Positions 1,104-54,143 of a stretch of DNA of 64,000 bases are shown piece by piece. Source of the stretch: Alphaproteobacteria bacterium. GTDB taxonomy: Bacteria; Pseudomonadota; Alphaproteobacteria; Sphingomonadales; Kordiimonadaceae. The stretch's first letter is position 1. Every line of letters begins with the position of its first letter. The stretch lies in assembly GCA_013372975.1 (NCBI GenBank), contig JABXIS010000042.1, forward strand, positions 1 through 64,000. Reading direction: 5' to 3'. The notes under the pieces were generated by a model. The model was not told the DNA's origin and made no database searches. It saw nothing but the letters and a program-made list of their open reading frames with translations. The position numbers and the translations under genes were made by a program.

Positions 1104-1138
1104 GCCAGGCAACCCAACATATCTCAGTTTTGAGTATG

Positions 1139-1173
1139 GAACCCTCGGGGCAAGCGCCTCGGGGGTTCTTTTT
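1139..1173 (+). terminator. Intrinsic terminator after groEL
   Basis: A 13-bp stem (GAACCCTCGGGGC against GCCTCGGGGGTTC, with two G-T wobbles) closes a four-base loop AAGC and runs directly into TTCTTTTT. It begins 36 bases after the groEL stop. Confidence 0.88.
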
Positions 1174-1399
1174 ATGTCATGGCATCTCGAGTTAATACCT
1201 TGTTAATCACTATGACACTTTTGTTAAAATCGCTGTGGTGTCATATCGTTACCGAAAATTTAACCCTTCCAAGGTAACACTCTAACTGACCGATGATCAT
1301 CGGTTGGCGCGATTGAGGGGCCGCGCCGTTTTCAGTTTCAGAAATCAGAGCGAAACGGGGGTGAGCTGTCGGCGCAAGCCGTTAAGTGGAGGGAGCATT

Positions 1400-3451: not shown

Positions 3452-3491
3452 AAGCAAGCGCCCCCTTCTGGACGGATGATGAAGAAAACAG

Positions 3492-3523
3492 TGCAGTGTC
3501 CATCCTTTGGGCACTGCAATTCT
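3492..3523 (+). terminator. Probable terminator after the chemoreceptor
   Basis: TGCAGTGTCC and GGGCACTGCA form a 10-bp stem with one wobble around a 7-base loop, followed by a weak T stretch (ATTCT). It overlaps the earliest possible start (TTG 3507) of the next gene, which argues for a later start there. Confidence 0.6.
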
Positions 3524-3548
3524 CAATATGAGGAAGACAGCCTTGCGA

Positions 3549-4562
3549 ATGCCCAAAAAAATTTCGATCAATCAAATATTGAAGGGTGGCGCACTTTTGG
3601 CGGCAATGTTTCTGTGGTCTTGTGACACGAAGAAGCCAGCGCAGTATCCGCTTCAGCAGGCGGACCTCAGCAACCGTACATTACGTATAATGCATGATCT
3701 CTCAGCAGATGACATGCAAGGCCGTGAAGCAGGCGAGCCGGGTGGCGTGAAGGCGCGTACCTACCTGCTGAATACGTTGAAAGAAATGAATATTCCGGCC
3801 GGTTTCGCCAGGGGCTACGAGCAACCCTTTACGGCCGAACTCAGGAACTGGATCGGCTTTGCATACGACGCACCTGGCGTGAACCTGTTGGCAAAAATCG
3901 AAGGTGAAAGTGGTTCTGGCCAAAGTTTGCTCATAAGCGCCCACTATGACCATGAAGGCAAACGTTGGGGCAGGATCTATAACGGTGCCGATGATAACGC
4001 TTCCGGGGTCGCGGCCCTGTTTGCTATTGCGGAGGCCTTCCAGAAGGAAAAGCCCAAACACACCATGTATCTGGCCTTTCTTGATGCCGAAGAAGAAGGC
4101 CTTCAGGGTGCCTTTCACTTTGCGGAGCAAATGGAAAGGGAAAATCTGGGCTGTGTTGCTTTCAATATCAATCTGGACATGATCAGCCGCAATCACGACA
4201 ACGAACTGTATGTTGCGGGCGGCTATCACACACCAGAACTGAAACCCTATCTGAACAACCTCGCTGAAGAGGTACCTGTAACCTTGCTTCAGGGCCATGA
4301 TCGCCCGGAGGACGGCGGTGGCGACTGGACAATGCAGTCGGACCATGGTGCGTTCCATGATGCAGGGGTGCCGTTCCTGTATTTCGGGGTGGAAGACCAC
4401 CCGCACTATCACCAGCCAAGCGATGAATTTGAAACTGTGCCTTTCGATTTTTACCTCAGGGCAGTGGAAACAGTTGTCGCAGCATCAAAGATGGTTGACG
4501 AGAATCTCCCGGATATGGGGCGAGCTTGTGGAGAAAGCGCTACTAGCCAAAACGACGGGTAG
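3549..4562 (+). CDS. M28-family zinc aminopeptidase, predicted lipoprotein
   Basis: Secreted metallopeptidase anchored in the envelope. From ATG 3549 the product is 337 residues with a lipoprotein signal (hydrophobic stretch ending LWSC, lipid-acceptor Cys25). All five metal-ligand segments of M28 peptidases are present: AHYDHEG near 131, NGADDNASG near 146 (bridging Asp), DAEEEG near 178 (catalytic Glu pair), DMISRN near 209, and a final His in YHQPSDEFE near 286. An in-frame ATG at 3528 and TTG at 3507 are alternatives, but both sit in or against the terminator of the previous gene. Substrate is probably free or short peptides; this is inferred from the family only. Confidence 0.9.
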   Translation: MPKKISINQILKGGALLAAMFLWSCDTKKPAQYPLQQADLSNRTLRIMHDLSADDMQGREAGEPGGVKARTYLLNTLKEMNIPAGFARGYEQPFTAELRNWIGFAYDAPGVNLLAKIEGESGSGQSLLISAHYDHEGKRWGRIYNGADDNASGVAALFAIAEAFQKEKPKHTMYLAFLDAEEEGLQGAFHFAEQMERENLGCVAFNINLDMISRNHDNELYVAGGYHTPELKPYLNNLAEEVPVTLLQGHDRPEDGGGDWTMQSDHGAFHDAGVPFLYFGVEDHPHYHQPSDEFETVPFDFYLRAVETVVAASKMVDENLPDMGRACGESATSQNDG

Positions 4563-4675
4563 CGCAATTTTGAGTCGCGAAGGCTAGGTTTTCAGCAAAT
4601 CACTTGCTCCGCAGATTCCTGTGAAAACATAACAAAATCAGGGGCTTGATGTGCGTTAGGGAAATATGTACATGG

Positions 4676-4695
4676 CTGTCATAAAAGCGAAACAT
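4676..4695 (+). promoter_or_regulatory. Candidate PhoB box upstream of the porin gene
   Basis: The first half CTGTCATAA is identical to the classical Pho-box half-site and is followed after a short spacer by AACAT, a weaker second half. The site lies about 120 bases before the porin start in a 253-base gap that holds no gene. GCTAAAT at about 4705-4711 could be the matching -10. Phosphate control would fit an OprO/OprP-type porin; this is a by-eye match only. Confidence 0.45.
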
Positions 4696-4815
4696 AGATG
4701 ACGCTAAATGCGCGCGTCTCGGGCGGCGGGGCGTTTAAAAGAAAACCTCCGCTTGGCCTGAACCGGTAATTTTAACAATCGCAGTTGGGTGCGGTTGGAA
4801 TAACGATAGGATAAT

Positions 4816-6099
4816 ATGATGCTTAAAGGGAAACACCTCGCGGGTCTTATGGCTGCTACGGCGCTTGCAACTGCTGTTGCTGCACCTGCAAATGCCCAAT
4901 CTGTTGAAGAGCTGAAAGCACAGCTTTCTGCACTGTCCAAGCGTATCGAAGAGCTTGAGAAAAAACAGAAGAAATCAGACGTTGTAAAAAAGGCCGAGCC
5001 TGCTTTCGGTCTTGCAACTGATGACGGTCTGTTTGAGTTCAATATCCGTGGCCGTCTCTATGCTGACGCTGCATGGGCATCTGACGACGATGGCAACATG
5101 GACGTAGACGCAACTGAATTCCGTACTGCGCGCCTTGGTATCGAAGGTAAAGCCTGGAAAAACACAAAATACAAGTTCGAGGCCGATTTTGCTGGCAACG
5201 AAGTTGAAATTAAAGACGCCTACATGCAATACGCCAGCGAGATGGGCAAATGGACATTCGGTCAGTTCAAGACACCTAACTCCCTCGAAGAGCAAACGTC
5301 TTCCCGCCACACTACTTTCATGGAGCGCGCTTCCTTCACCGATGCGTTCGGCCTTGCGCGCATGATGGGTATCGGTTACGGCCACGGCGGCGATAACTGG
5401 ACATTCAATGCTGGTGTATTCCGCGGCGATGCTGGCGGCTCTGCTGACGATGCAGGCCAGGTTTTCGCTGCTCGCCTGACATATGGCGGCAAGTTTGACA
5501 ACGGTAGCTGGCTCCTGGGTGCTTCTGCTCGCGTTCGTGATAACGACGGTGAAGATGGCCTGCGTTACCGCCAGCGCCCACACAACCACCTGACTGACCG
5601 CTTTGTAGCAACTAGCCGTATCGCAGAAAAAGACAGCATGTTCGGCCTTGAAGCTGCGCTTCAGTATGGTTCCTTCCATGTGGCGTCCGAATGGGCAAGC
5701 CTGAACGCCAAAGAAGGTGGTGCCGGCGGCCGTGATGCAAACTTCTATGGTGGTTACGTAGAAGCTGGTTGGTTTATCACTGGCGAGAAGAAGCCACTGA
5801 AGCTCGACAAGGGCACTTGGGATCGCCCGAAGGTTAAAGCTCCACTGCATGAAGGTGGCATGGGCGCATGGCAGATCGCTGCCAAGTTTGACCGCATCGA
5901 CCTGACTGGCGACGGTGTATACGGCGGCGAGCAGGATACTGTGATCGTTGGTGTAAACTGGTACCTGAACCGTCACACACGCTTCATGGCCAACTACAGC
6001 CACAGCTCCATCGACAAAGCCTTTGACGTAGCTGCAAACGGTGCAGACGGCGAAAACGGTGTCGATGCACTGGGCCTGCGCTTCCAGGTTGACTGGTAA
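4816..6099 (+). CDS. OprO/OprP-family outer-membrane porin
   Basis: Trimeric beta-barrel porin of the outer membrane, in the family of polyphosphate/phosphate-selective porins. The 427-residue precursor has a signal peptide with cleavage after Ala27 (PANA/Q), then a short coiled coil (EELKAQLSALSKRIEELEKK), then a long Gly/Asp/aromatic-rich barrel. It ends in LRFQVDW, with the terminal aromatic expected of outer-membrane proteins. Typical family features are FNIRGRLYADAA at the start of the barrel and FRTARLGIEGK. Codon bias is strong, suggesting abundance. Start ATG 4816 follows GATAGGA. A candidate Pho box lies upstream and a strong terminator follows, so it is probably monocistronic. Substrate specificity is not proven. 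Confidence 0.88.
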   Translation: MMLKGKHLAGLMAATALATAVAAPANAQSVEELKAQLSALSKRIEELEKKQKKSDVVKKAEPAFGLATDDGLFEFNIRGRLYADAAWASDDDGNMDVDATEFRTARLGIEGKAWKNTKYKFEADFAGNEVEIKDAYMQYASEMGKWTFGQFKTPNSLEEQTSSRHTTFMERASFTDAFGLARMMGIGYGHGGDNWTFNAGVFRGDAGGSADDAGQVFAARLTYGGKFDNGSWLLGASARVRDNDGEDGLRYRQRPHNHLTDRFVATSRIAEKDSMFGLEAALQYGSFHVASEWASLNAKEGGAGGRDANFYGGYVEAGWFITGEKKPLKLDKGTWDRPKVKAPLHEGGMGAWQIAAKFDRIDLTGDGVYGGEQDTVIVGVNWYLNRHTRFMANYSHSSIDKAFDVAANGADGENGVDALGLRFQVDW

Positions 6100-40845: not shown

Positions 40846-43800
40846 TTACAAAACAAAATCCACACTTGTCAGGTCTGCCAGCGTCAAGCCAACAATGAAG
40901 GCGGATTGGTTCCCGTCATCCCACACGATCAACACACCGCTGCTACCGTCTTTGGTTGTTAACGAGGCTGCCGCCTGAACATCTGCGACGGTGTTAAAGC
41001 CAGCACCGGAATATTGCAGATTGATCTGGTCATCGTCGATGTCGAAATCCCGGATGGTGTCATTGCCGGACACTGCCCCGAACATGAAGACGTCTTCGCC
41101 GTCACCACCAGACAAGAAATCGTCATCATTACCGGCCCAAAGGGTGTCATTACCTTCGCCACCGATAACCGTGTCGGTTCCTTCGCCGTTATAGAGCATG
41201 TCATTACCGGAGCCACCGTCAACGGTATCGGCACCAAAGCGCCCCCATAGCAGGTCGTCGTTATCCTCACCTTGCAACAAGTCATTACCGAAGCCGCCGC
41301 CAAGGCTGTCTAGGCCGCCGCCGCCGCTGACGACGTCATTCCCAACGTCGCCAAGGCCTGCAAAAACAAGGTCGTTGCCGAAACCGCCGATGACATTGTC
41401 GTTGCCGAGCCCGCCCCTGAGTAGGTCATCATCGCTGCCGCCATCGATGGTATCGTCACCATCGCCGCCGTCGATGGTATCCTCGCCGGAGCCGGAGTTG
41501 ACTTTATCGTTACCCCCCAAAGGCAGGATCAGATCATCATTGTCTGTTCCGTCAACGGTGTCCGGGTCGTTGCCTCCGGTGAATTCGGAGACATCAGTAA
41601 CGGCAATTGTGAAGCTTTCAGAATAGCTTGCGCCTTCGTCATCGTTGGCCGTGATGGTGACTGTTACTGAGGATTCAGTTTCAAAGTCGATTGACTGGCC
41701 AGCTTTGAGCTTAAGTTCGCCGTTCGCGTTGATTGTAAAGCGGCTGTCGGAGACAGACAGAGAATGGGTGTCATCATCTACGTCAGATACACTCACAGTA
41801 CCGATAACGGCACCAACCTTGTTCTCCGTGACACTCAGGCTGCTGACAGAGATGTCGTTCGGGGCATCATTCACCGATGTGACCTTCACCGTCATTGTAG
41901 CAGTGCTGGACGCAAAACCAGTGCCGTCATTCACCGTGTAGGTGAATGTGGTGTTACCGGATTGGTTGCTCACAGGCGTATATGTGAGGTTGCTGATATC
42001 TGCCACGGCGATCACATCTCCCGCGGTTACTGCAACGCCGGAGAGTTTCAAGGTGCCGCTGGAGGGCAGGGTATCGATACGCACGCTGACAAGTGCATCG
42101 CCTGTATCAACATCGCTGAAGTTGAAGTTGCCAGATGAGAATGTCTTGTTCTTGTCTTCGGCAGTTGAAACCGAGCCACCCGAGCTTGTCGGCAAGTCAT
42201 TCACACCGGTAATGGTAACAACAATGTCTTCTGAGGTGCCATCGGCTGATTCAATTGTGATCGTATCATCCAGCGTGTCACCCGCAGCAAGTGCTTGCAC
42301 ATCGCTGTCGCTATTGTCGATGGTGTAGGTCCAATCACCATTTGCAGCGATCACAAGGGTGCCGTTCGCGCCATCAATTGTGTCTGCATTGAAGGTGTTT
42401 TCACCAGTATCGGTGTCTGTGACCGTGGCTGTGCCGGTGTCTGTGGTGCCGTCTTCATTGATGGCACCGATAAGATCACCCGCAATTGTCGCTGCATCAT
42501 TCACGCCATCGATAGTGATAACAATATCTTGTGTCGTGCCGTCGTCTGCAGCAACGCTGATTGTATCCTGCAGGGTATCGCTGGCGGCCAGCGCCTGCAC
42601 ATCACCGTTGGCTTCGTCCAGGTCGTACACCCAGTCACCATTTGTTGCGATGGTAAGAGTGCCGTACGTTCCAGCAACAGTGTCAGCCGTGAAAGTATCG
42701 GCATCATCGACATCGCTCACTGTCGCGGTTCCGCCGACGGTATCAGTGTCCTCACCGATGCTGCCTGTCAGGTCACCGCCAAAGGTGGCGGCATCATTTA
42801 CCCCGGTGATGGTGATTATGATATCCTGGTTTGATCCATCGTCTGACTGAACCGTAATCGTATCCTGAAGCGTATCCCCGGCGTTAAGCGCCTGAACGTC
42901 ACTGTTTGCTTCGTCAAGGTCATAAGTCCAATCGCCATTGGCCGCGATCTGGATGTCACCGTAGGTGCCGCCGGGTGTGGCAGCATCGAAGGTGTTCGGG
43001 TTATCCACGTCCGTTACGGTGGCGGTGCCGCCAACCGTATCTTCATCCTCATTCATTGTGGCTGTCAGGTCACCACCGAATGAAGGTGCATCATTGACAT
43101 TGGTAATATCAATATTGGCAGTCCCCACATTCACATCGCCCGAGCCATTGTCGTCATTGGCTGTAATGGTCAAAGTGGCGGCATTGTCGCCGTTAGCGTC
43201 GGCCGCGCCAGTATACTGAACCGCGTCGGTATCATCGAGGAAAGTGTTGATGTCATCGGTGTTGCCGGTGAGTTCCAGTGTTGCAGTACCAGAGCCACTT
43301 ACGGTTACGCCGCCGCCTGTTGTGGCAGCCAGGGTACCTGCATCTACCGTGAAGGTAATAATCAGGTCGGTATCGTCACCATCCGAGAAGGTAACACCGG
43401 ACAGATCTACATTACTGGCAGTGTCCTCTGTAACTGTAATGTCTGTCGGAATGCCGGTTGCTTCAGGTGGTTGGCTTGTCACGCCAACTGTGAAGGTAGC
43501 AGCATGATCCTCATCACCGCCATTTGCTGTGCCATCGCCATCATTCAGGGTGAGGGTGAAAACCCTGTCCCCAATGCCCGAAGGTGGAGAATGCAGCAAA
43601 TTCTGAATAAGTGTCTGTATATTGGCATTAGTGGCGTTAGCGGTTGTGAAATTGATTGTCAGGTCGTTGCCGCCCTGTCCGTCATCGGTGGCATCCACCG
43701 TACCAATAGTAACACCGCTGACCTGAACAGTTTCACCAGCTGAAATAGAGCCGTCACCGCCTGAAGTTACGGTCGTACCGTCAACAGACCAGTCGCCGTT

Positions 43801-46800
43801 AGTTGTGCCGGACGATTGGTTTATGGTGATAAAGCCACCGTTATAGTCATCTGAGTCTGCGTTGGTAATTGTGACGTCATTGAGATCAGTGACATCCTGC
43901 GCACCGTCTCCTGCCACAATCTCGCTTGCGCTATCACCATTGAGGTTGGCAATTCCCGGTGCGTCATTCACTGCCGTGATGCTGACGGTAGAAGAGATCG
44001 ACAGTGTCGCCGTGTCGTCATTGCTGCCTGTATTGCCGCCACTGTCCGTGATCGATGTAATGGTTACAACACGGTTGGACCCGGTCGTCGGGTCATCACT
44101 GGCGTTTTGATACACCATGCCGTCGATCAGGGTCTGGGTTGCCGCTTCAGACATGGTGCCGCCCGAGAATGACACAGTCGCAGTGCCACTTGAAACGCTG
44201 ACACTATAGCTGAGGCTATTTGTAGCCGTTGTGCCACTGTTGCTGTCGGTGAGGGCAATGGCAGTGCCGTCGATCACCAATATTTCGTCTGACCCGTCGC
44301 TGACATTTGTGACTGTCATTGTCAGGTCGGAAATGGTTTGGCCGGTTTCGATGGTGTCTGCCGTAACGCTGGAGAAGAGATCAGAGTTTGCCCCGCCTTC
44401 TGTGAAGGTTGGGTCCTGGCCCGTTGCAGTCAGCGTTGGTTCGTCGTTGATGTCTGTGATGTCGATGTTGGATGTAAATACTGTTACATCGCCAGAACCA
44501 TCACCATCATTGGCTTGCACGGTCAGCGTTGCGGCGTCATCACCGCTGACATCCGAACCACCGGTGTATTGAACGGCACTTGCGGTATCCAGATAGGTTT
44601 CGATTTCATCAAGTGTACCAGAAAGGGTGAGGGTATCTGTGCCCGAGCCTCCGACAGTAACATCAGCACTGGACGTTGCGGCCAGTGTGCCACTGTCAAC
44701 CACCAGCGTAACTGTTGCATCTCCGTTTGAATCGGCATCGCTGAAGTCTGCACTTGAAAGATCAAGATCAGACGCTGTTTCTTCCAGCACAGTAATGTCG
44801 GTTGGGCCGCCAGTGGCAGTTGGATCGCTGTTGGTGGCAACAACAGTAATTGTGGAAGTTATCGAGAGGGTTGCCGTATCGTCGTTCGATCCAAAGCTAC
44901 CGCCATCGTCTGTCATTTCCGAAATGGTGACGACACGGTTGCTTGCGGTGGTTGGTGTGCTGCTGCTGTTGTGATACTCGATCGCATCGATCAGGGTTTG
45001 GGTCTGTGCTTCGGTCAGCGTGGCACCAACTAGTGTGATCGTTGCGGTGGAGCCACTCATGACAACGCTATAGGTGAGGCTGTTGGTGGCTGACGTGCCC
45101 GCATTGTCACTGGTGATGTCCACATAGGTGCCATCCAAGAGCAGGAATTCCGAGCCACTGTCCGAGACATTCGAGACCGACAGCGTAAGCCCAGTAATGG
45201 TTTGGCCAGATTCGATGGTATCGACAGTTACGCTGCTGAACACATCGCTGTTGGCGCCGCCTTCGGTGAAGGTAGGGTCTTCGCCGGTTGCCGTAAGCGT
45301 GGGTTCGTCATTGAAGCCGTTAATGTCGACATTCGCTGCGCCAAGGTTTACGTCGCCAGAGCCATCATCGTCATTGGCATAAATGGTGACGGTCGCTGCG
45401 TCATCACCGCTGACATTTGAGCCCGGTGTATATTGTATGGAGCTGGCAGTATCGAGATAGGTTTCGATTTCATCAAAGGTACCGGAAAGGGTGAGGCTAT
45501 CAGACCCGGAGCCACCGATGGTTACGTCAGCACTGGATGTGGCGGCCATTGTGCCGCTGCTGGCAACGACCGTTACCGTTACATCGCCTGAGGAATCCAC
45601 ATCAGAGAAGTCGATAGCAGAGAGATCAAGGTCACCAGCTGTATCCTCGTCAAACGCAACATCGGACACAATACCAGTTGCGGTCGGGTCGTCATTCACC
45701 GCGGTAATGTCAGCGTTCACCGTGCCGAGGGTAACGTTGCCTGAGCCTTCGCCGTCGTTGGCGATAACAGTAATGGTTGCTGCATCGTTGCCGTTGGTGT
45801 TGGAAGAGCCGGTATATTGAACGCTGGACGTTGTATCGAGGAAGGTTTCGATTTCGTCGAACGTGCCGGAAAGGGTGAGCGTATCACTGCCTGAACCGCC
45901 AACCGTTACATCGGCCCCATTGCTGGAGGTGAACGTACCACTGCTGGCCACCAGAACAACCGTCACGTCACCGGCGCTGTCAACGTCTGTGAAGTCTGCT
46001 GCCGACAAATCAACGTTTCCGGCCGTATCTTCAGAGAATGTTATGTCTGAAACCAGCCCGCTGATGGACGGGTTGTCATTGACGTCTGTAATATCAATAT
46101 TGACGGTGCCCAAATCTACATTGCCTGACCCGTCGCCATCGTTTGCACGAACTGTGAGCGTGGCGGCGTCATCGCCGCTTACGTCAGTAGCACCTGTATA
46201 TTGAACAGCAGACGCAGTATCCAGGAACGTGTTGATATTGCTGAAAGTACCGGAAAGCGACAGAGTGCCGGTGCCTGATCCGCCCACGGTGACGCTGCCA
46301 CCCGAAGTGGCGCTCAGAGTGCCTGTGTCAGCAATCAGATAAACCGTTACCGACCCGCTACTGTCAACGTCAGAGAAAGCGCTGGCAGAGATGTCCACAT
46401 TGCCTGCAGTTTCCTCGGTTACAGAAACATCGGTCACCAGCCCAGAAATGGTCGGGTCGTCATTCACGGCATTGACAGTGACACTTGCTGTATCTGACGC
46501 CGAAGAGAAGGCGGTGGAGCCACCGTTTGAAGACGCGTCGGCAGTGCTGCCCGCTGTGCCTGAGGATTCATCCCAAGCCCGGAACGTGATCGTGGCGCTG
46601 CCGTTATAGTCGGCATCCGGCACAAAGCGCACCATGTCCGCGCTGTCCAGGAGGCGGGCGGAAGATTCAATATCAACGCTCGTTCCTGTGGTGCCGGAGA
46701 AATTGTTCCAACTGGTGCCGCTATCGGTGGAATATTGCCACACACCATTGGTGTTATCGACAGTGGTGACGGCTATGGATTCAACAGCGCTGCCATCAAC

Positions 46801-48549
46801 ATCGGTAATGGAGCTGTCGACAACCAATGTGGCCACGGTCGTGCCAGTGTTGTTGGTGTTGTTGGTACCGTCATCATCACCATCGGCGCTGGAACCATCA
46901 TCATCGCCCGCATCTTCATCAATCGCCGTCAGGGTGGGCGATTGGCTATTATCCAAAACCGGCGCATCGTTCACAGCCGTGATGTCAATGTTGACATCAG
47001 TATTGCTGGCGCTGTCGGTTCCATCTGTCACAGCAATGGTCAATGTGGCGGCGTCGTCTCCGTTTGTGTTCGACGCCCCGGTGTATTGAACGTTTGACGT
47101 GGTATCGAGATAGGTGTTTAGGTCACTCGCTGACCCAACAAGTGTGATTGTAGTGCTGTTGACAAGCGTTTCAGTTACGCCGGACCCGACAGCGGCGCCG
47201 TCGCCGGGAGTTGAAAAAGTGCCGCCGTCAACCTTAAGTGTAACCGTAAGGCTGTCACCATCTGAATCTGCGAATGTAATGGCAGAAAGATCAACGTCTG
47301 ATGCGGTGTCTTCCGTGACGGATACATCTGTTGGGGCACTGCTCACGGTGGGCGCACTGTTGCTGACGGCAGCGGAGATTACGACATCGTCAATGCCCAT
47401 TAGGGCCATGCTCGAACCGTTGTCGGAATTGATCCTGAACTCAACCACACTGTTAAAATCCGACCCAAGCGTTCCATCGGACACGCTTAGATAACCGACA
47501 TTCTGGCCATTGTTGGTCGTCGTGGTAAAGCCGCTCAGGGTTACCGCAGAGCCAATCTGCGTGCCGCTGGCATCGTGGGCTGTTACGGTGAAGGTCGGGG
47601 TTGCTGAAGATGCATAGAAGAAAGAGAAACCGTCAAGGTTGAAGGCCCCATCGTCGTCCGCGCTCAGGGAGATATAGTCGATCTGCTGAACGGACCCTGT
47701 CGTTCCGCCGGAGCCAGCCGCGTGGGTAAAGATCAGAGCGTTATCCGAAACACCGAAGGCACTGTTTGTGTAGTTGCTGGTCGCATCGTTTGGGGTGCCG
47801 ATATAGATATCGACACTATCTGTGTTGCCCGAATAGGTGACCTCTAGGCCGGAAGCGCTGACATTGGATACTGGCCCGGCGTTATCGGTGGCGAGCAGGG
47901 TTACGCCATCGTTAAAGTTTTCGGTGCCATTGGACGGAGCCAGCACGGCGTCGAAACCCGACATGCTGATCTCGGAGAACGCCGCGCTAGTTTCGATTTC
48001 ACCGGTGTTGACTTCAAGGTCCCAGTCACCGCCCTTGGTGCTGTTGCCCGTCAGGTCATCAGAAGCTGCGACGTCGGCACCGGTTTCGGCTGCCAGCGCT
48101 TCAAGGAAATCAAGGCCTTCGCCACTGTCACCTATTCGGCAGCCAAAGAGCAGCATGTCGCCGCCGTCCGAAAGAGCATCACCAATAGCAGACAGTGCGC
48201 CGGAGAATTCACTGATGTTGTCAACTGTCAGCGCATCCTCGCCGAGATACAATTTGCCAACTTCCCCGTGAGACAAAACCTGAAGAGATGAAATTTCTGA
48301 GTAACCAGCGAGAGCCTCAGCCAACTCGTCAAAACCACCTTCACCGACCAAAATGATTTCTGCGTCCTGCGCGACGCCGTCCATCAGGGCCTCGTATCCA
48401 CTAACGGTGGTGTCAACGACTACAACCCTTGCGCCGTTGCCCGAAGTACCATCGGGCAATGCCGCCGCCGATGTGTCTGTGAGGCTGTCTTGAGGGCTGT
48501 CGCCGAAAGAACTGGTGGCGCCAAGGTCGGTCTTCAGGTCGTCGGTCAT
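40846..48549 (-). CDS. Giant DUF4347 / cadherin-like / VCBS / RTX surface protein
   Basis: Predicted type-I-secreted adhesin of 2567 residues, very rich in Asp, Thr, Ser and Gly. Order: DUF4347 (about 37-200, RVVVVDTTVSGYEALMDGVA, QVLSHGEVGKLYLG, MLLFGCRIG), then a jelly-roll-like segment (200-395). About ten Ig/cadherin-like repeats follow (396-1823), in two alternating types. Next come three VCBS repeats (1823-2123, each NGDWTYDLDEANSDVQAL-like), two cadherin-like domains (2123-2323), Ca-binding RTX nonapeptides (2330-2490, GGxGxDxx) and a C-terminal secretion tail (DGSSGVLIV, then FIVGLTLADL). AGGAAG six bases before the ATG supports the start. No signal peptide and almost no Cys, as usual for this class. 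No secretion genes are in the window. Confidence 0.9.
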   Translation of the reverse strand: MTDDLKTDLGATSSFGDSPQDSLTDTSAAALPDGTSGNGARVVVVDTTVSGYEALMDGVAQDAEIILVGEGGFDELAEALAGYSEISSLQVLSHGEVGKLYLGEDALTVDNISEFSGALSAIGDALSDGGDMLLFGCRIGDSGEGLDFLEALAAETGADVAASDDLTGNSTKGGDWDLEVNTGEIETSAAFSEISMSGFDAVLAPSNGTENFNDGVTLLATDNAGPVSNVSASGLEVTYSGNTDSVDIYIGTPNDATSNYTNSAFGVSDNALIFTHAAGSGGTTGSVQQIDYISLSADDDGAFNLDGFSFFYASSATPTFTVTAHDASGTQIGSAVTLSGFTTTTNNGQNVGYLSVSDGTLGSDFNSVVEFRINSDNGSSMALMGIDDVVISAAVSNSAPTVSSAPTDVSVTEDTASDVDLSAITFADSDGDSLTVTLKVDGGTFSTPGDGAAVGSGVTETLVNSTTITLVGSASDLNTYLDTTSNVQYTGASNTNGDDAATLTIAVTDGTDSASNTDVNIDITAVNDAPVLDNSQSPTLTAIDEDAGDDDGSSADGDDDGTNNTNNTGTTVATLVVDSSITDVDGSAVESIAVTTVDNTNGVWQYSTDSGTSWNNFSGTTGTSVDIESSARLLDSADMVRFVPDADYNGSATITFRAWDESSGTAGSTADASSNGGSTAFSSASDTASVTVNAVNDDPTISGLVTDVSVTEETAGNVDISASAFSDVDSSGSVTVYLIADTGTLSATSGGSVTVGGSGTGTLSLSGTFSNINTFLDTASAVQYTGATDVSGDDAATLTVRANDGDGSGNVDLGTVNIDITDVNDNPSISGLVSDITFSEDTAGNVDLSAADFTDVDSAGDVTVVLVASSGTFTSSNGADVTVGGSGSDTLTLSGTFDEIETFLDTTSSVQYTGSSNTNGNDAATITVIANDGEGSGNVTLGTVNADITAVNDDPTATGIVSDVAFDEDTAGDLDLSAIDFSDVDSSGDVTVTVVASSGTMAATSSADVTIGGSGSDSLTLSGTFDEIETYLDTASSIQYTPGSNVSGDDAATVTIYANDDDGSGDVNLGAANVDINGFNDEPTLTATGEDPTFTEGGANSDVFSSVTVDTIESGQTITGLTLSVSNVSDSGSEFLLLDGTYVDITSDNAGTSATNSLTYSVVMSGSTATITLVGATLTEAQTQTLIDAIEYHNSSSTPTTASNRVVTISEMTDDGGSFGSNDDTATLSITSTITVVATNSDPTATGGPTDITVLEETASDLDLSSADFSDADSNGDATVTLVVDSGTLAATSSADVTVGGSGTDTLTLSGTLDEIETYLDTASAVQYTGGSDVSGDDAATLTVQANDGDGSGDVTVFTSNIDITDINDEPTLTATGQDPTFTEGGANSDLFSSVTADTIETGQTISDLTMTVTNVSDGSDEILVIDGTAIALTDSNSGTTATNSLSYSVSVSSGTATVSFSGGTMSEAATQTLIDGMVYQNASDDPTTGSNRVVTITSITDSGGNTGSNDDTATLSISSTVSITAVNDAPGIANLNGDSASEIVAGDGAQDVTDLNDVTITNADSDDYNGGFITINQSSGTTNGDWSVDGTTVTSGGDGSISAGETVQVSGVTIGTVDATDDGQGGNDLTINFTTANATNANIQTLIQNLLHSPPSGIGDRVFTLTLNDGDGTANGGDEDHAATFTVGVTSQPPEATGIPTDITVTEDTASNVDLSGVTFSDGDDTDLIITFTVDAGTLAATTGGGVTVSGSGTATLELTGNTDDINTFLDDTDAVQYTGAADANGDNAATLTITANDDNGSGDVNVGTANIDITNVNDAPSFGGDLTATMNEDEDTVGGTATVTDVDNPNTFDAATPGGTYGDIQIAANGDWTYDLDEANSDVQALNAGDTLQDTITVQSDDGSNQDIIITITGVNDAATFGGDLTGSIGEDTDTVGGTATVSDVDDADTFTADTVAGTYGTLTIATNGDWVYDLDEANGDVQALAASDTLQDTISVAADDGTTQDIVITIDGVNDAATIAGDLIGAINEDGTTDTGTATVTDTDTGENTFNADTIDGANGTLVIAANGDWTYTIDNSDSDVQALAAGDTLDDTITIESADGTSEDIVVTITGVNDLPTSSGGSVSTAEDKNKTFSSGNFNFSDVDTGDALVSVRIDTLPSSGTLKLSGVAVTAGDVIAVADISNLTYTPVSNQSGNTTFTYTVNDGTGFASSTATMTVKVTSVNDAPNDISVSSLSVTENKVGAVIGTVSVSDVDDDTHSLSVSDSRFTINANGELKLKAGQSIDFETESSVTVTITANDDEGASYSESFTIAVTDVSEFTGGNDPDTVDGTDNDDLILPLGGNDKVNSGSGEDTIDGGDGDDTIDGGSDDDLLRGGLGNDNVIGGFGNDLVFAGLGDVGNDVVSGGGGLDSLGGGFGNDLLQGEDNDDLLWGRFGADTVDGGSGNDMLYNGEGTDTVIGGEGNDTLWAGNDDDFLSGGDGEDVFMFGAVSGNDTIRDFDIDDDQINLQYSGAGFNTVADVQAAASLTTKDGSSGVLIVWDDGNQSAFIVGLTLADLTSVDFVL
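43960..45690 (-). repeat. Tandem duplication of a two-domain (A-B) unit inside the giant gene
   Basis: Two consecutive units of about 860-870 bases, roughly 45690-44830 and 44830-43960. Each encodes a type-A domain (EDTAGDLDLSAIDFSDVDS-like) followed by a type-B domain (TLTATGxDPTFTEGGANSD). The B domains of the two units share almost identical starts. Boundaries are approximate, read from the translation. Confidence 0.75.
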
Positions 48550-49033
48550 CGTGTGCTTCCTATGAAATTGGTATCACTCAGGCTTGGCGCTGCCTTTAGG
48601 GGTGAAATTGGGTGCGCCAAGTCTGCATGTCTATAGTCCCCCAAAAATACACGTGCAGGTATAAAGAATACTTGTGCCATAGCTAGGCCCGGAACCGGGT
48701 GCTGCTATTCATTCACATTTAGCAAAATGTAATAGAGAAACCTAGGATGGGAAACATTAATTTTAGATAAATTAAGTGTTTATGCTGCCTGGTCAGATTA
48801 TCTGTCGAACGCCACAACTCTGGAATAACTAATCGCGCAACAAAAAGACGCCCCGTTTCTTGCACGCTATGGGGTAATTCCAGTGGCGGCTATTATATGG
48901 CCGTGGGAGCTGAAATAAAACTTTAAGCACTAATAGGTTGACTGATTTCAAACTTAAGGTTTCAATCAGATTTCTTGTTATGCGTGTTTTCCGAGTTTTT
49001 TTGCATCCATTCCAATCATTTAGGGGAAGACCT
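48550..49033. promoter_or_regulatory. 484-base divergent promoter region between giant adhesin and tail-collar operon
   Basis: AT-rich, no gene seen on either strand. AGGAAG at about 48556-48561 (minus) serves the giant gene and AGGGGAAG at about 49021 serves the collar gene. A run of A/T-rich boxes lies at 48715-48780, and the pair TGGAATAAC / GTAATTCCA at 48820-48883 is a near-perfect inverted repeat with a long spacer. The plus-strand frame open from 48938 has no ribosome site at its start. Confidence 0.5.
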
Positions 49034-49669
49034 ATGGAAGGCTATCTTGGAGTCATCGAAGCGCTTGGTTTCAATTTCACACCGCTCCATTACGGCGCTT
49101 GCGCGGGCGCACTGATTGCGATCTCTCAGAATACTGCGCTCTTTTCACTGCTGGGCACCGCGTTCGGGGGCGATGGTCGCAGCACCTTCGGCCTCCCGGA
49201 ACTCAGGGGCCGTGTGCCGATGGGCTTTGGTGCCGGGCCGGGGTTGCCACCCTTTGTCATGGGCCAGAAAACGGGCACCGAAACCGTGACACTCAATAGT
49301 ACCCATCTGCCGGCGCATACCCATGCGCACACTTATACCGCCAGTGGTGGTGGCGGCACGCCGGCGGCGGCCGTGGTCGAAGTGGCGTCCAACAGCGGCG
49401 GCAAGAAGGCGACGCCGGCTGACGGTGATTATATCGCGGGCCCAGGCAATGCCTTTGGTGCTGTACAGGATAATCTGTTTCTTGCCCCAACCGATGTGAC
49501 CTCAACGGCACTTATCGGCGGTGTCACCGTTACAGGCGGTGGCGGGTTTGATTCGGCTGCCTTCTCCATTCTGAGCAGTGGCCAGAACTATCCGTTCCCG
49601 ATCGTTCAGCCAAGCTCGGTCATCAATTTCGCCGTCTGCATGCAGGGTATGTTCCCAAGCCGCAGCTAA
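49034..49669 (+). CDS. Phage tail-collar domain protein (microcystin-dependent-protein type), copy 1
   Basis: A 211-residue protein of the tail-collar family that chromosomal bacteria encode apart from prophages. Start ATG 49034 has AGGGGAAG seven bases before it. The collar fold core is GVIEALGFNFTPLHYG, FSLLGTAFGGDGRSTFGLPE and LRGRVPMGFG near residues 5-75, then the HTHAHTYT histidine cluster. A long Gly/Thr block (ATPADGDYIAGPGN, FGAVQDNLFLAP) and the tail CMQGMFPSRS follow. The real role is unknown. It heads a five-gene block and has a close copy two genes later. Confidence 0.88.
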   Translation: MEGYLGVIEALGFNFTPLHYGACAGALIAISQNTALFSLLGTAFGGDGRSTFGLPELRGRVPMGFGAGPGLPPFVMGQKTGTETVTLNSTHLPAHTHAHTYTASGGGGTPAAAVVEVASNSGGKKATPADGDYIAGPGNAFGAVQDNLFLAPTDVTSTALIGGVTVTGGGGFDSAAFSILSSGQNYPFPIVQPSSVINFAVCMQGMFPSRS

Positions 49670-49723
49670 CCTCTCTCCAATGGGCACCAGATTTTCCAGC
49701 CCTTATACGAAGGAGGTATAGTC

Positions 49724-50167
49724 ATGCTGGACAAGGTAACATCGAAAAATTTCAAGGATATCGTGGGCACAAAAGCTACGATAACCATCATGGATGGACC
49801 CGACATTGAACTGACCGTGCAGGCAGTTCATGAGATCAAGCTCAAGAAGGACGATGAACGGCCGGATAGTTGCCGCAAAAAGCCCTTCAGTGTTGTTCTC
49901 AGTGGGCCCGAAGCGCATCAGGCCCCTGATGGCAGCTATGACATGACGTTTGAGAAGATCGGGCTTCTTGAACATGTCTATGTGGACAACAAGTCCGACA
50001 ATCCGGAAAGCGAAGACTTCAATACGAAGGCTGCCAAAGATGCGGCGGAGGCTATCAAGGCCGCCAAGAAAGCAGCAGCGGCAGGCAAGGAAGCCGATTC
50101 GGGTGATGATGCCGCGCCACGGAGCGAACCGGAGCCCAGTGTGCTCTATGAAATCAACTTCGGGTAA
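49724..50167 (+). CDS. DUF6916-like protein, copy 1
   Basis: A 147-residue protein with a compact N-terminal half (KNFKDIVGTKATITIMDG, FSVVLSGPEAHQAPDGSYDM), a low-complexity Ala/Lys segment (AAEAIKAAKKAAAAGKEA) and the terminal VLYEINFG. The order beta-strand block, SGPxxxxxxDGxY, then Y-x-I-N-F-G resembles DUF6916 proteins that accompany tail-collar genes. GGAGG lies eight bases before the ATG. The copy at 50911 is shorter and lacks the Ala/Lys insert. Function unknown; a partner or chaperone of the collar protein is a possibility. Confidence 0.72.
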   Translation: MLDKVTSKNFKDIVGTKATITIMDGPDIELTVQAVHEIKLKKDDERPDSCRKKPFSVVLSGPEAHQAPDGSYDMTFEKIGLLEHVYVDNKSDNPESEDFNTKAAKDAAEAIKAAKKAAAAGKEADSGDDAAPRSEPEPSVLYEINFG

Positions 50168-50187
50168 CGGGCGGCAGGAGACGTATC

Positions 50188-50823
50188 ATGTATGATCAAT
50201 ATATGGGTGTCATCAAGGCACTTGGATTTAAGTTCGTCCCGGCAGAGTGGGGTCTGTGTTGGGGCGGTATCTACGATATCGACCAGTTTACGGCCCTTTT
50301 CTCCCTGCTCGGGTGCCGGTATGGCGGCGATTGCCGCAGCAGCTTTGGCTTGCCGGACCTCCGTGGCCGCGTGCCGATGGGCTATGGACAAAGTCCGGGC
50401 ACATCTAATCGAATTCTCGGCACATTGCCCGGTTGGCACCAGCGCGTTTTGACCTACAGCTATATGCCCGAACACACCCATTCGCACACCTACACGGGTG
50501 GTAGTGGCGGTGGCCTTGATCTCACGGTTCGGGTGGCGTCCAAGAGCGGTGGCAAAAGCGCCACACCGGCCGATGGCGACTATATCGCGGGTCCAGGCAA
50601 TTCGTTTGGTGCGGTGCAGGACAATCTGTTCCTGGCCCCGGCCGATGTGACGTCAACGGCCAAGATTGGCGGCGTTACGATCGCGGGCGGTGGCGACTTC
50701 AACAATAATAATCTGGCCATCGCGTCGACACCGGACCTTACAAATGCTGTGTATGTGTTCCAGCCAAGCCAGGCCTTCAACTACTGCATCTGTATGGAAG
50801 GCCTCTATCCTTCTCGCAGCTAG
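50188..50823 (+). CDS. Phage tail-collar domain protein, copy 2
   Basis: Also 211 residues, with the same layout as copy 1: GVIKALGFKFVPAEWG, FSLLGCRYGGDCRSSFGLPD, LRGRVPMGYG, then HTHSHTYT. The Gly/Thr block is nearly identical (ATPADGDYIAGPGN, then FGAVQDNLFLAP), as is the tail CMEGLYPSRS. The stretch between VPMGYG and the histidine cluster is quite different, and this copy has extra Cys residues. Start has GGCAGGAG upstream, 20 bases after the previous stop. Confidence 0.88.
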   Translation: MYDQYMGVIKALGFKFVPAEWGLCWGGIYDIDQFTALFSLLGCRYGGDCRSSFGLPDLRGRVPMGYGQSPGTSNRILGTLPGWHQRVLTYSYMPEHTHSHTYTGGSGGGLDLTVRVASKSGGKSATPADGDYIAGPGNSFGAVQDNLFLAPADVTSTAKIGGVTIAGGGDFNNNNLAIASTPDLTNAVYVFQPSQAFNYCICMEGLYPSRS

Positions 50824-50910
50824 GACAGATCAAAACAATCGGGTGCCGCGTGCGCGCGGTGCCCATCCGCCCGGGAGGGCGATTTGGGGTGAACTTTATG
50901 GGAGACAAGT

Positions 50911-51258
50911 ATGACCAGCAGTGAAGTAACACCGATCCCGCTTGGCGAGGTGACCTCGCAGCATTTCAACTTGAATGACTCGGACTACCATTTCGTCGCA
51001 GGTGATCTGGCGATGCCGGTTCAGTTGATGGACTGCAAGGAAAAGCCGGAATCCGCGGGCCCAGACAGCACACGTACACCGTTCCTTCTGGTGTTCCGCG
51101 CCGATGTGGATGAGGCGCATCTGATGCAGCAGACGCTTGAGTTCAAGGGTTGTATCCACGGTCTTGAAGACGCGCGGATCGACGATCTTTTGATTCTACG
51201 CATGATGCGTCCGGCAAACATGCCCGAAGGCGCCTATTATCAGGTGATCTTCAATTGA
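50911..51258 (+). CDS. DUF6916-like protein, copy 2
   Basis: A 115-residue protein with the same fold signals as copy 1: a strand-rich start (PIPLGEVTSQHFNLNDSDYH), FLLVFRADVDEAHLMQQ in place of the FSVVLSGP block, and the terminal YYQVIFN. GGGAGACAAGT precedes ATG 50911. An 87-base gap to copy 2 of the collar gene holds nothing recognisable. Together they make a collar-DUF6916 unit repeated twice in tandem. Confidence 0.7.
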   Translation: MTSSEVTPIPLGEVTSQHFNLNDSDYHFVAGDLAMPVQLMDCKEKPESAGPDSTRTPFLLVFRADVDEAHLMQQTLEFKGCIHGLEDARIDDLLILRMMRPANMPEGAYYQVIFN

Positions 51259-51304
51259 TGTTTGGCAAAGCGATCACCGGCAAAGAGATTGAGGGAGGCA
51301 TAGT

Positions 51305-51865
51305 ATGATTGAAGGAACCGTTCACCTGCCACATGGCATCACGGCCCGCGCAGCGATCAAGGGCGACAAGGATTTCCTTGCCAAGATGTACAAGGACAAC
51401 CGGGACGATTTGCGCATGGCCGATGCGGAGAAGGACTATATCGAATCCGTGATCGAGATGCAGCTTGAGGCCCAGATGGGTGGCTATGGGGCGCAATTCC
51501 CGAATGCCATTTATCTGATTCTGGAAAAAAATGGCTCGCGTATCGGGCGCCTGACGCTGGATGTCCAGCCCGTTGAGCTCAGGTTGGTGGACCTCGATTT
51601 CATCAAGAAAGCGTCGGGAAAAGGCTATGGGTCTGCCATTCTTTTATGGTTGATGAAAGCTGCCGCAACCACCAGGAAGCCGCTTCTGGTACCCACGCGG
51701 CGCGATGATTTCGCCATGGGCAAGTTCCTGATGAAATATGGTTTCATCGAGGATGAAAGCATGTCTGACCAGGTTTTTGCCCGCATGAGCTGGATGCCAA
51801 CAGCTGACGAAATGGCAGGTATTGCCGATATCAGACCGCGAGCTGCCGCTGGCGGCGCAGTCTAG
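51305..51865 (+). CDS. GNAT-family N-acetyltransferase in the tail-collar operon
   Basis: A 186-residue acetyltransferase-fold protein; the acetyl-CoA loop is ASGKGYGSAILLWLM near 110-124, with FLMKYGFIEDE as the usual late motif. Start ATG 51305 has GGGAGG eight bases upstream. It closes the block just before a strong terminator, so it is most likely co-transcribed with the two collar proteins and could modify them. Conventional GNAT substrates cannot be told from the sequence. Confidence 0.82.
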   Translation: MIEGTVHLPHGITARAAIKGDKDFLAKMYKDNRDDLRMADAEKDYIESVIEMQLEAQMGGYGAQFPNAIYLILEKNGSRIGRLTLDVQPVELRLVDLDFIKKASGKGYGSAILLWLMKAAATTRKPLLVPTRRDDFAMGKFLMKYGFIEDESMSDQVFARMSWMPTADEMAGIADIRPRAAAGGAV

Positions 51866-51892
51866 TTCCAAATACATGCAGTGTTAGGGGTG

Positions 51893-51917
51893 AAGGGAGG
51901 TGAAAGCCTCCCTTTTT
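51893..51917 (+). terminator. Terminator of the tail-collar operon
   Basis: AAGGGAGG and CCTCCCTT pair perfectly around a 6-base loop and run into TTTTT. Confidence 0.92.
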
Positions 51918-52317: not shown

Positions 52318-53685
52318 ATGAAAGACATTTATGACGATGTGCTGGCGCATGCGCAAAAACATGGCCGCGCCTATCTGGCGCAAGTTCATGAACAGCCCGT
52401 TTTTCCGTCGGAGGAGGCGCTTTCAAATCTGAAGACGTTTGAAGAGGCCTTGCCCACCAAAGGGCAGTCTGCGATTGACACAATTGACATGCTGCATGCT
52501 ATTGGGAGCCCGGCAACAGTTGCTACAACGGGGCACCGGTATTTTGGATTTGTGGTTGGCGGAACCGTGCCGGCGAGTGTCGGCGCCAACTGGCTTGCTG
52601 GCGCCTGGGACCAGAGCCCATCGTCTTTCATGAACTCACCTGTAGGCACCAAGCTGGAAAGCGTGGCAGCGGGCTGGTTGCGGGACATTCTCGGCCTTCC
52701 CGATCACCTGGGAGTTGGCATGACCACTGGCGCCACAATGGCGAATTTCACAGGCCTCGCCGCCGGGCGGTCCGCACTTCTCAGGCGTGCAGGATGGAAC
52801 GTGGAAGAAGATGGCCTCTATGGCGCACCGGAGATCAAGGTGATTGTGTCTGAAGAGGTGCATGTGACTGTCGAGAAAGCTCTGGCGATGCTTGGATTGG
52901 GCAAAAAACGTGTCACACGTGTGCCGACCGATGCCAACGGTGCAATGAAGTTGGATGCCTTGCCTGAACTGGATGCTCTTACAATGGTTTGTACGCAGGC
53001 CGGGAACGTGAATACAGGGGCAATTGATCCCATTGGTGCTATCTGCGCACGCGCCAGAGAAGTTGGTGCGTGGGTGCATGTAGACGGGGCATTCGGCCTT
53101 TGGGGGCGGCTTCTGGAGCATATGACAGATGCTTTTGAGGGCATAGAACAAGCTGATAGCTTGGCGACCGACGCCCACAAATGGCTGAACACGCCTTATG
53201 ACTGCGGCATTGTACTAACCAGACATCCAGAGGCGCTGCACCATGCAATGGCGACAGTCGCCCCATATTTCAAGGCGGAAGAGGCCATGGCGCCGAAGGA
53301 TATGGTGCCTGAATTTTCGCGCCGTGCCCGTGGCGTGGAGGTTTGGGCGGCTTTGCGTTCGCTTGGGCGCGACGGTGTGACAGGTATGATCGAAGGCTGT
53401 TGTGTGCACGCGCGCCATTTTGCCGATGGCCTTCAGGCAATTGGTTTTGATGTGCTTAACGATGTGGTGCTTAATCAGGTCGTGGCAACAATCGGCTCCC
53501 CTGAGGAACTGGCCGACATTCGTGCTCTTGTAGAGGCGTCGGGAGAATGCTGGTTCGGCCCAACGGTATGGAAAGGCCGACACGCTGTGCGTATCAGTGT
53601 TTCCAGTTGGCGGACGACAGCGGAAGATGTGGAGCGGTCATTGGCGGCGATAGCGGCGGCCAAAGCGGCTATTCTGGGGGACTAG
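52318..53685 (+). CDS. PLP-dependent group II decarboxylase
   Basis: Amino-acid decarboxylase of the aromatic-L-amino-acid/glutamate decarboxylase superfamily, 455 residues from ATG 52318 (GAGGAAG upstream). PLP features are present: HRYFGFVVGG and WDQSPSSFMNSPVGTKLE early, GVGMTTGATMANFTGLAAGR near 137-156, the cofactor Asp in HVDGAFGLWG, and the Schiff-base Lys in TDAHKWLNTPYDCG. The frame can be extended to 52264 inside arsR, but the ArsR stop and ribosome site favour 52318. The substrate is not determined. It converges on a GNAT gene with a four-base overlap. Confidence 0.9.
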   Translation: MKDIYDDVLAHAQKHGRAYLAQVHEQPVFPSEEALSNLKTFEEALPTKGQSAIDTIDMLHAIGSPATVATTGHRYFGFVVGGTVPASVGANWLAGAWDQSPSSFMNSPVGTKLESVAAGWLRDILGLPDHLGVGMTTGATMANFTGLAAGRSALLRRAGWNVEEDGLYGAPEIKVIVSEEVHVTVEKALAMLGLGKKRVTRVPTDANGAMKLDALPELDALTMVCTQAGNVNTGAIDPIGAICARAREVGAWVHVDGAFGLWGRLLEHMTDAFEGIEQADSLATDAHKWLNTPYDCGIVLTRHPEALHHAMATVAPYFKAEEAMAPKDMVPEFSRRARGVEVWAALRSLGRDGVTGMIEGCCVHARHFADGLQAIGFDVLNDVVLNQVVATIGSPEELADIRALVEASGECWFGPTVWKGRHAVRISVSSWRTTAEDVERSLAAIAAAKAAILGD

Positions 53686-54143
53686 CCCGGAATAGCCTCA
53701 GGTGGCCACCAGCAGACGCCCTTTTCGCTGACACGGGCGCCAATCCGTTTGTAAAGGCGAATGGCGCCCTCATTCTCGGCCATTACTTCCCATTTGACAC
53801 CTGCGTCTTCGGCTTTCGCTTTTGCACCCAATTCCATCAGAAGCTTGCTGCCAACGCCGTGGCCCCGCGCGGTGGGGGAAACATAAAGATCGTCCAGCTG
53901 GAAGATATTGCTGTTGTTCCAGATATGGAACCGCGGCACCCACGTGGTAACGCCTACGATCGCGCCTTCCAGTTCCGCTACCATGAAGCCAATTTTGGCA
54001 GGGGATGAGAAAGCAGCCTTTTCAAAGCCTACTGCGTCGATCTTCAGGTCTGCCGCTGAATTCTCATGGGAGGCGAGGGCCTCGATAAGGCCGTAGGCCG
54101 CGGCGGCATCTTCGCGTGTGCCTTCGCGAATAATCAGGGACAT
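53682..54143 (-). CDS. GNAT-family N-acetyltransferase
   Basis: A 153-residue acetyltransferase with acetyl-CoA loop TARGHGVGSKLLMEL near 92-106, preceded by IFQLDDLYVSP and followed by ENEGAIRLYKRIGARV. It is the small diamine/spermidine-acetyltransferase-like type, but the substrate is not certain. It lies 47 bases downstream of the fumarase gene on the minus strand, behind a hairpin. Confidence 0.85.
   Translation of the reverse strand: MSLIIREGTREDAAAAYGLIEALASHENSAADLKIDAVGFEKAAFSSPAKIGFMVAELEGAIVGVTTWVPRFHIWNNSNIFQLDDLYVSPTARGHGVGSKLLMELGAKAKAEDAGVKWEVMAENEGAIRLYKRIGARVSEKGVCWWPPEAIPG

Follow-up and report, generated by a model that had tools for sequence, protein, structure and literature searches.

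The stretch analysed here (the window) comprises the first 64,000 nt of contig JABXIS010000042.1 from an alphaproteobacterium of the family Kordiimonadaceae (assembly GCA_013372975.1). On its + strand it carries five genes in the order collar A, DUF6916a, collar B, DUF6916b and a gene of GNAT type, divergent from the gene for a giant surface-type protein. Collar, DUF6916 and GNAT genes almost certainly form one conserved functional set. We put at roughly one in two the probability that this set is a phage tail-tip module that has been domesticated and works together with a giant surface adhesin, the GNAT and DUF6916 proteins helping it to mature or assemble.

Linkage of collar, DUF6916 and GNAT genes

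Genes are mechanical open reading frames (ORFs) throughout. Among the 398 sampled genomes of the phylum, DUF6916 (PF21880) was present in 44 and the collar domain (PF07484) in 100; a collar was also found in 43 of the 44 DUF6916 genomes versus 57 of the 354 others (Fisher p 1.4e-28, kinship ignored). Neighbourhoods were scanned in 49 stretches around DUF6916 matches plus the window, using profiles built from window and Marinicella seeds. The linkage counts rest on the 46 loci, from 44 genomes and including the window, in which the profile listed a DUF6916 gene; genomes G012 and G238 contribute two loci each. The other four of the 50 DUF6916-seeded stretches (L070, L075, L077, L084) were omitted because the profile listed no separate DUF6916 gene, and all four hold collars and a GNAT gene. 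Collars lie within 6 kb of DUF6916 in 43 of the 46 loci, GNAT genes in 39 and both in 38, the GNAT counts being upper bounds since the profile also picks up an unrelated RimI-like GNAT (53682-54143 in the window). An adhesin-like giant of at least 1400 aa, where 'adhesin-like' denotes passage of a composition filter, lies within 9 kb in 24 of the 46.

As controls, 20 stretches of 18.2 kb were taken, each from a different one of these genomes; they held no collar, no DUF6916 and no giant of at least 1400 aa, and their only GNAT match was an 84-aa fragment. The composition filter passed three control ORFs of 787-1062 aa and failed one of 1795 aa; at a threshold of at least 700 aa, giants were found at 26 of the 46 loci versus 3 of the 20 controls. 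An earlier reading of the window from its letters and ORFs (the sequence-only reading) had proposed a free-standing set of these three families, and this comparison bears out their conserved co-occurrence. The association with a giant surface-type protein, which that reading had drawn from the window, recurs elsewhere.

A frequent gene order is three collars, GNAT and DUF6916, often next to a giant. The window order is common to four congeners (L086, L094, L095, L096); in three other congeners (L267, L269, L270) the collars adjoin DUF4347-type or other large repetitive ORFs. A congeneric stretch, L264 (G001:C41:25500-45400), has a run of collars with a GNAT gene, one ORF holding three collar domains and another two, and its genome has 18 collar matches altogether.

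Two fusions join members of the set. In L091 (2095-3774, - strand) two collars and a GNAT are fused in one 559-aa frame, and the fusion site lies in a 617-codon open frame without stops; in L077 (3398-4240, - strand) a GNAT and a DUF6916 are fused in a 280-aa protein. A Pfam scan found a DUF6916 match within one of 43 GNATs. When genes that are otherwise separate occur fused, this is classically read as evidence of joint function, and these two fusions may be read so for the collar, GNAT and DUF6916 genes.

The set extends to named organisms. In Marinicella pacifica a cadherin-type protein of 1741 aa is accompanied by three collars, a GNAT and proteins of DUF6916 type. Plasmid records of Deinococcus sp. 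KNUC1210 and Ruegeria sp. TM1040 list three 'tail fiber' genes along with a GNAT and a large neighbouring gene, and the same plasmid-borne layout occurs in Rhizobium bangladeshense, Paenibacillus amylolyticus and Aminobacter; DUF6916 was confirmed in the Ruegeria, Aminobacter and Rhizobium sets. The large neighbour has Big_2 (Ig-like) repeats and SLH domains in Paenibacillus (1683 aa) and spans 12,477 bases by annotation in Aminobacter. Deinobacterium chartae, a control genome, has both collar and DUF6916 matches. In Brevibacillus panacihumi an Ig/cadherin-like ORF accompanies three collars, and a profile scan found no GNAT or DUF6916 there; in Hymenobacter a single collar is annotated next to two large genes. 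A gene of 405-494 aa stands between collars and GNAT in three stretches (L276 6688-7905, L279 6430-7914, L275 6735-7985), with weak propeller, FG-GAP or tectonin-like matches in two, and a periplasmic binding protein match in Deinococcus.

Collar proteins and the block shared by A and B

Collar A (49034-49669, + strand) and collar B (50188-50823, + strand) are 211 aa each and score 71.1 and 68.2 bits against Pfam Collar (cut-off 24). For collar A the ORF lister gives a TTG start at 48938; the ATG at 49034 agrees with the family start. A profile of 23 collars matched two solved structures, T4 gp12 (1ocy, E 1.7e-7) and a phage long tail fibre (8kec, E 2.1e-10). The receptor-binding domain of gp12 (1ocy, 1pdi, 5iv5) has the collar domain PF07484 in common with the proteins studied here, aligned at profile positions 5-76, and its HxH motif is present in them too. 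Both histidines (H95 and H97, 49316-49324 in collar A) are invariant among 53 aligned collars, and reach 100% and 99% in a larger alignment of 94. In gp12, HxH is a metal site and the protein is part of the baseplate, whereas the collars here are stand-alone proteins of 165-215 aa with no other tail genes adjacent. By homology to gp12, whose type of collar uses HxH to hold metal, they would fold as metal-knitted trimers of the T4 short-tail-fibre type.

Residues 117-165 form a block (49382-49528 in A, 50533-50679 in B) that is identical between A and B at 44 of 49 positions, with the same codon at 23 of those 44. The tail agrees at only 11 of 24 positions, so that of the near-identical 'Gly/Thr block and tail' of the sequence-only reading the first half stands and the second does not. 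The limits of the block were drawn by eye on the window pair; four other congeneric genomes serve as an independent test. Across the five genomes the mean block identity of A to B is 0.79 within a genome versus 0.45 between genomes, with 0.45 for A to A and 0.46 for B to B, and outside the block the within- and between-genome identities are alike. The true A-B pairing scores best of 120 in the block and is unremarkable in five other regions; without the window genome it is still best of 24. Between block A and block B the pairwise matrices show a correlation of 0.89; with the cores of their own genes the values are -0.50 and -0.17, and with the GNAT 0.24 and 0.31. The blocks of G006 and G012 are similar, which makes the effective sample four to five genomes.

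These comparisons turn round the proposal that the two collars combine an invariant scaffold with a variable face: the segment they share varies strongly between species and matches within each of the five genomes. The block looks like a genome-specific patch common to both paralogues. A lone collar at a second, unlinked locus of G012 has block identities of 0.67-0.69 to its own A and B and 0.62-0.67 to those of G006, and a search of the window's own genome with the block matched only A and B. Pooled multi-collar loci elsewhere show no such matching (excess 0.02 in the three windows over the block); the evidence would thus confine it to the A/B collars of this genus.

Gene conversion between A and B could leave such a block as a relic, with no functional matching, and two points speak for it: the genes are about 0.5 kb apart and the edges of the block are sharp. 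We consider it unlikely. Where A and B have the same residue, the codon is also shared at 87 of 197 sites within the block and at 173 of 413 elsewhere (0.44 versus 0.42), while the amino acids of the block are 65-90% identical between A and B, and the same segment is matched in all five genomes. With codon identity in the block as low as outside it, no A-B pair looks recently converted. A possible variant is a conversion long ago, after which both copies came under strong selection.

The genome of the window has a third, unlinked collar (L006 5840-6559, G000:C56) with a signal-peptide-like start by eye; no GNAT or DUF6916 was found within the 8.7 kb fetched around it.

A surface module and its rivals

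The giant of the window (2567 aa, 40846-48549, - strand) has an N-terminal DUF4347 domain, VCBS and cadherin (Cadherin_4) repeats and C-terminal RTX repeats. It thus has the make-up of cadherin/VCBS-type RTX giant adhesins with DUF4347, both the cadherin-type repeats and the RTX repeats near the C-terminus being present; we know of no collar partner in the usual description of these adhesins. Domain content varies among 23 giants of related loci chosen for scanning (DUF4347 in 12, Big_9 in 9, Cadherin_4 in 8, RTX repeats in 4, an autotransporter domain in 3) and HlyD-type genes adjoin some cassettes; the partner is therefore probably a large repetitive surface-type protein whose export route differs by lineage. 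A search for type I secretion genes, confined to 10 large window ORFs, found none. In the DUF4347 domain of the window giant, SHG and GC motifs are conserved across giants, and we take them to recall a clan CD protease dyad.

The remaining products are small. DUF6916a (147 aa, 49724-50167, + strand; 37.5 bits, Pfam cut-off 27) has an Ala/Lys-rich insertion ahead of its last conserved stretch, and DUF6916b (115 aa, 50911-51258, + strand) scores 25.3 bits, slightly below the cut-off. Comparison of DUF6916 with solved structures gave no useful sequence match, two matches being designed proteins that hit the Ala/Lys stretch, and NCBIfam gave nothing useful for the small cassette proteins. DUF6916-like proteins with a twin-arginine-like start, judged by eye, were seen in L007 (9604-9960), L058, L063, L064 and L065. 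The GNAT-family protein (186 aa, 51305-51865, + strand) is a divergent member of the cassette GNAT family and is assigned through it: 39 of 43 aligned members match Acetyltransf_1 at E <= 0.01, though the window copy does not. Of the acetyl-CoA loop glycines, G107 is invariant in the family and G109 nearly so.

A GNAT-like protein beside an RTX protein resembles the HlyC-type toxin-activating acyltransferases. The 13 Pfam families matched by the 43 GNATs do not include HlyC, which none of them matches at E <= 0.01, and the GNAT fusions here join a collar or DUF6916, never the giant; HlyC-like activation was set aside.

If the module works at the surface, we would picture it as follows. Trimeric collars A and B would co-assemble, or bind one shared partner, through the species-specific block 117-165 that matches within the cell in this genus. 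DUF6916 would be a dedicated small partner, whether chaperone, cap or adaptor, and the GNAT would modify or mature the particle. The product would be displayed with, or at the tip of, the adjacent giant cadherin/Ig-type protein and would act as a recognition or adhesion device. Much more tentatively, the whole could be a new class of bacterial surface organelle in which phage-derived trimeric tail tips, a small partner and an acetyltransferase sit on a giant adhesin and the paralogues recognise each other by a fast-changing genome-specific block; only matching subunits would then co-assemble, or only matching cells interact.

Several results weigh against the surface module. At 22 of the 46 loci no giant of 1400 aa is in reach (8 of these stretches being shorter than 13 kb), and in five stretches the place of the giant is taken by asparagine-synthase-like genes, in some cases with HPr-kinase-like or sulfotransferase genes. 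Forty-one collar-seeded stretches had no DUF6916 match in the first search; 8 of them hold a GNAT, 10 a giant of at least 1400 aa and 3 a DUF6916 by profile. Some chromosomal collars therefore stand outside the set. The window GNAT scores 16.3 bits, below the Pfam cut-off of 20.7, and may be degenerate. The structure models are poor: that of collar A (a monomer prediction from 23 sequences) has a mean pLDDT of 51.6 and does not confirm the trimer, and that of DUF6916b (4 sequences) has 50.1 and does not confirm a fold. No lysine column exceeds 19% in 95 collars, which makes a fixed acetyl-lysine on the collar unlikely; with no such column conserved, action of the GNAT on an N-terminus, on Ser/Thr or on the giant, or a structural role, would be as likely as lysine acetylation. 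Finally, a crude pattern test found a signal-peptide-like start in only 1 of 96 cassette collars (L092, whose start may be over-long), and by eye none was seen in three collars of the Gram-positive Paenibacillus, so that a cytoplasmic role has to be reckoned with.

Such a role, for instance in a metal- or acetyl-CoA-responsive complex sharing only an expression context with surface proteins, is a minority possibility that we nevertheless take seriously. The near absence of signal peptides, Gram-positives included, favours it, as does the fusion that puts the enzyme in the same compartment as the collar. It sits poorly with the recurrent linkage to surface-type giants and with the signal-peptide-like starts of 10 of 53 collars from collar-seeded stretches (the same pattern test) and of the triple collars on two short IMG/VR contigs (L157, L158, by eye). 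Much less probable is a role of the collars as exchangeable fibres on a contractile injection system whose genes lie elsewhere. In published data a collar set of Acaryochloris is induced in the same condition as genes including a phage tail sheath protein, and a sheath match was counted by hand in 13 of the 44 DUF6916 genomes versus 61 of the 354 others. However, the tail sheath family PF04984 has no match in the window's genome (G000, E <= 0.001), in the congener G012 or in 31 of the 44 DUF6916 genomes, and on that ground these fibres were set aside.

Least credible of all is a prophage or tailocin remnant, or prophage cargo, in which a phage would have left behind, or would be carrying, two tail-fibre genes. 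In its favour, the collar domain belongs to phage tails, both window collars are matched by PHROGs tail profiles, and contigs L160 and L161 of a viral collection each hold a GNAT beside three collars, these being the only GNAT profile matches in 80 viral-collection loci; in L161 an integrase gene lies about 3 kb from the GNAT. Yet DUF6916 and GNAT queries (window DUF6916a and GNAT, and the Ruegeria pair) matched none of 50,697 phage records, and the DUF6916 profile none of the 80 loci. Collar B matched 128 phage records, none over more than 80% of its length, the coverage reaching at most 43% among the 20 matches listed. The 1273-aa neighbour in L160 is a DUF4347 giant, so L160 and L161 may be host DNA; the edge of a prophage and genuine cargo are further possibilities. 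Many lineages retain this gene set. Ten large window ORFs flanking the cassette are of chaperonin, chemotaxis-receptor, molybdopterin-enzyme, RecN/SMC-like, DNA-ligase, UvrD-helicase, chloride-channel, AsmA, decarboxylase and fumarase types, none phage-like; no phage structural gene is among them, the smaller ORFs having been scanned in part, and ARAGORN found no tRNA gene in the window. Prophage decay was set aside on the retention of the set across lineages, the phage records without DUF6916 or GNAT, and the chromosomal flanks. The statement that no other phage gene lies in the window agrees with these scans; as to a prophage context, which the sequence-only reading had named as counting against itself, none was seen here, and L161 with its integrase is the case on the other side. 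In L161 the GNAT-collar set (397-5390) also lies near adenylylsulfate kinase and aspartyl/asparaginyl hydroxylase genes.

Locus context and published relatives

The giant and collar A are separated by a divergent spacer of 484 bp (48550-49033). After the GNAT gene a hairpin (51892-51915, + strand) with a T run on its 3' side has the features of a terminator (-22.5 kcal/mol for 65 nt, z -2.65); it is absent from the list of a consensus terminator scanner. The ORFs, Pfam matches and hairpin energy confirm the five-gene layout with its terminator and divergent 2567-aa protein as first described. The asparagine-synthase-like genes lie in cassettes L051, L053, L056, L067 and L091, as seen in scans of cluster representatives.

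Related genes appear in the literature. In Acaryochloris marina, AM1_3688-3690 are annotated 'phage tail collar' and AM1_3686 'acetyltransferase putative', with neighbouring conserved hypotheticals (PMC11633204). AM1_3688-3690, AM1_3686, AM1_3687 and AM1_3684 change by log2 -3.2 to -4.0 in white over far-red light in strain MBIC11017, and four of these genes by -2.6 to -3.4 in strain MU13 (PMC11633204). Three collars and an acetyltransferase thus change together with light (AM1_3684, AM1_3686-AM1_3690), a likeness drawn by annotation, and the source passages of PMC11633204 do not discuss the set. RhiB of Rhizobium leguminosarum (COG4675) is a collar-domain protein encoded in the rhiABC(D) operon with rhiI/rhiR (PMC13133039, PMC6969944, PMC5977203); the operon is regulated by quorum sensing and may matter in plant interaction. 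By description, it differs in that RhiA and RhiC have no Pfam domain (PMC13133039) and therefore neither DUF6916 nor GNAT. For collar paralogues of Ca. Solibacter a positive-selection Z of 3.70 was obtained (PMC3174227), and COG4675 proteins are reported from a soil metaproteome (PMC5579227).

Bacterial records label such collars as stray 'tail fiber' genes. Among titles and abstracts of the matches listed, in a literature with few subscription papers, we found no description of the collar-DUF6916-GNAT set, and a search for DUF6916 by name found no paper in a literature whose scope left out most subscription papers. The linkage, the fusions and the partners turn the stray collars into one testable system in several phyla and give DUF6916 a functional context, and through the matched block one can ask directly what the collars bind. 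The cassette, with the patch shared by A and B, suggests a fibre or adhesin system of the cell surface that has not been described; should the surface reading hold, bacteria would be reusing phage tail tips for adhesion or recognition in an undescribed way.

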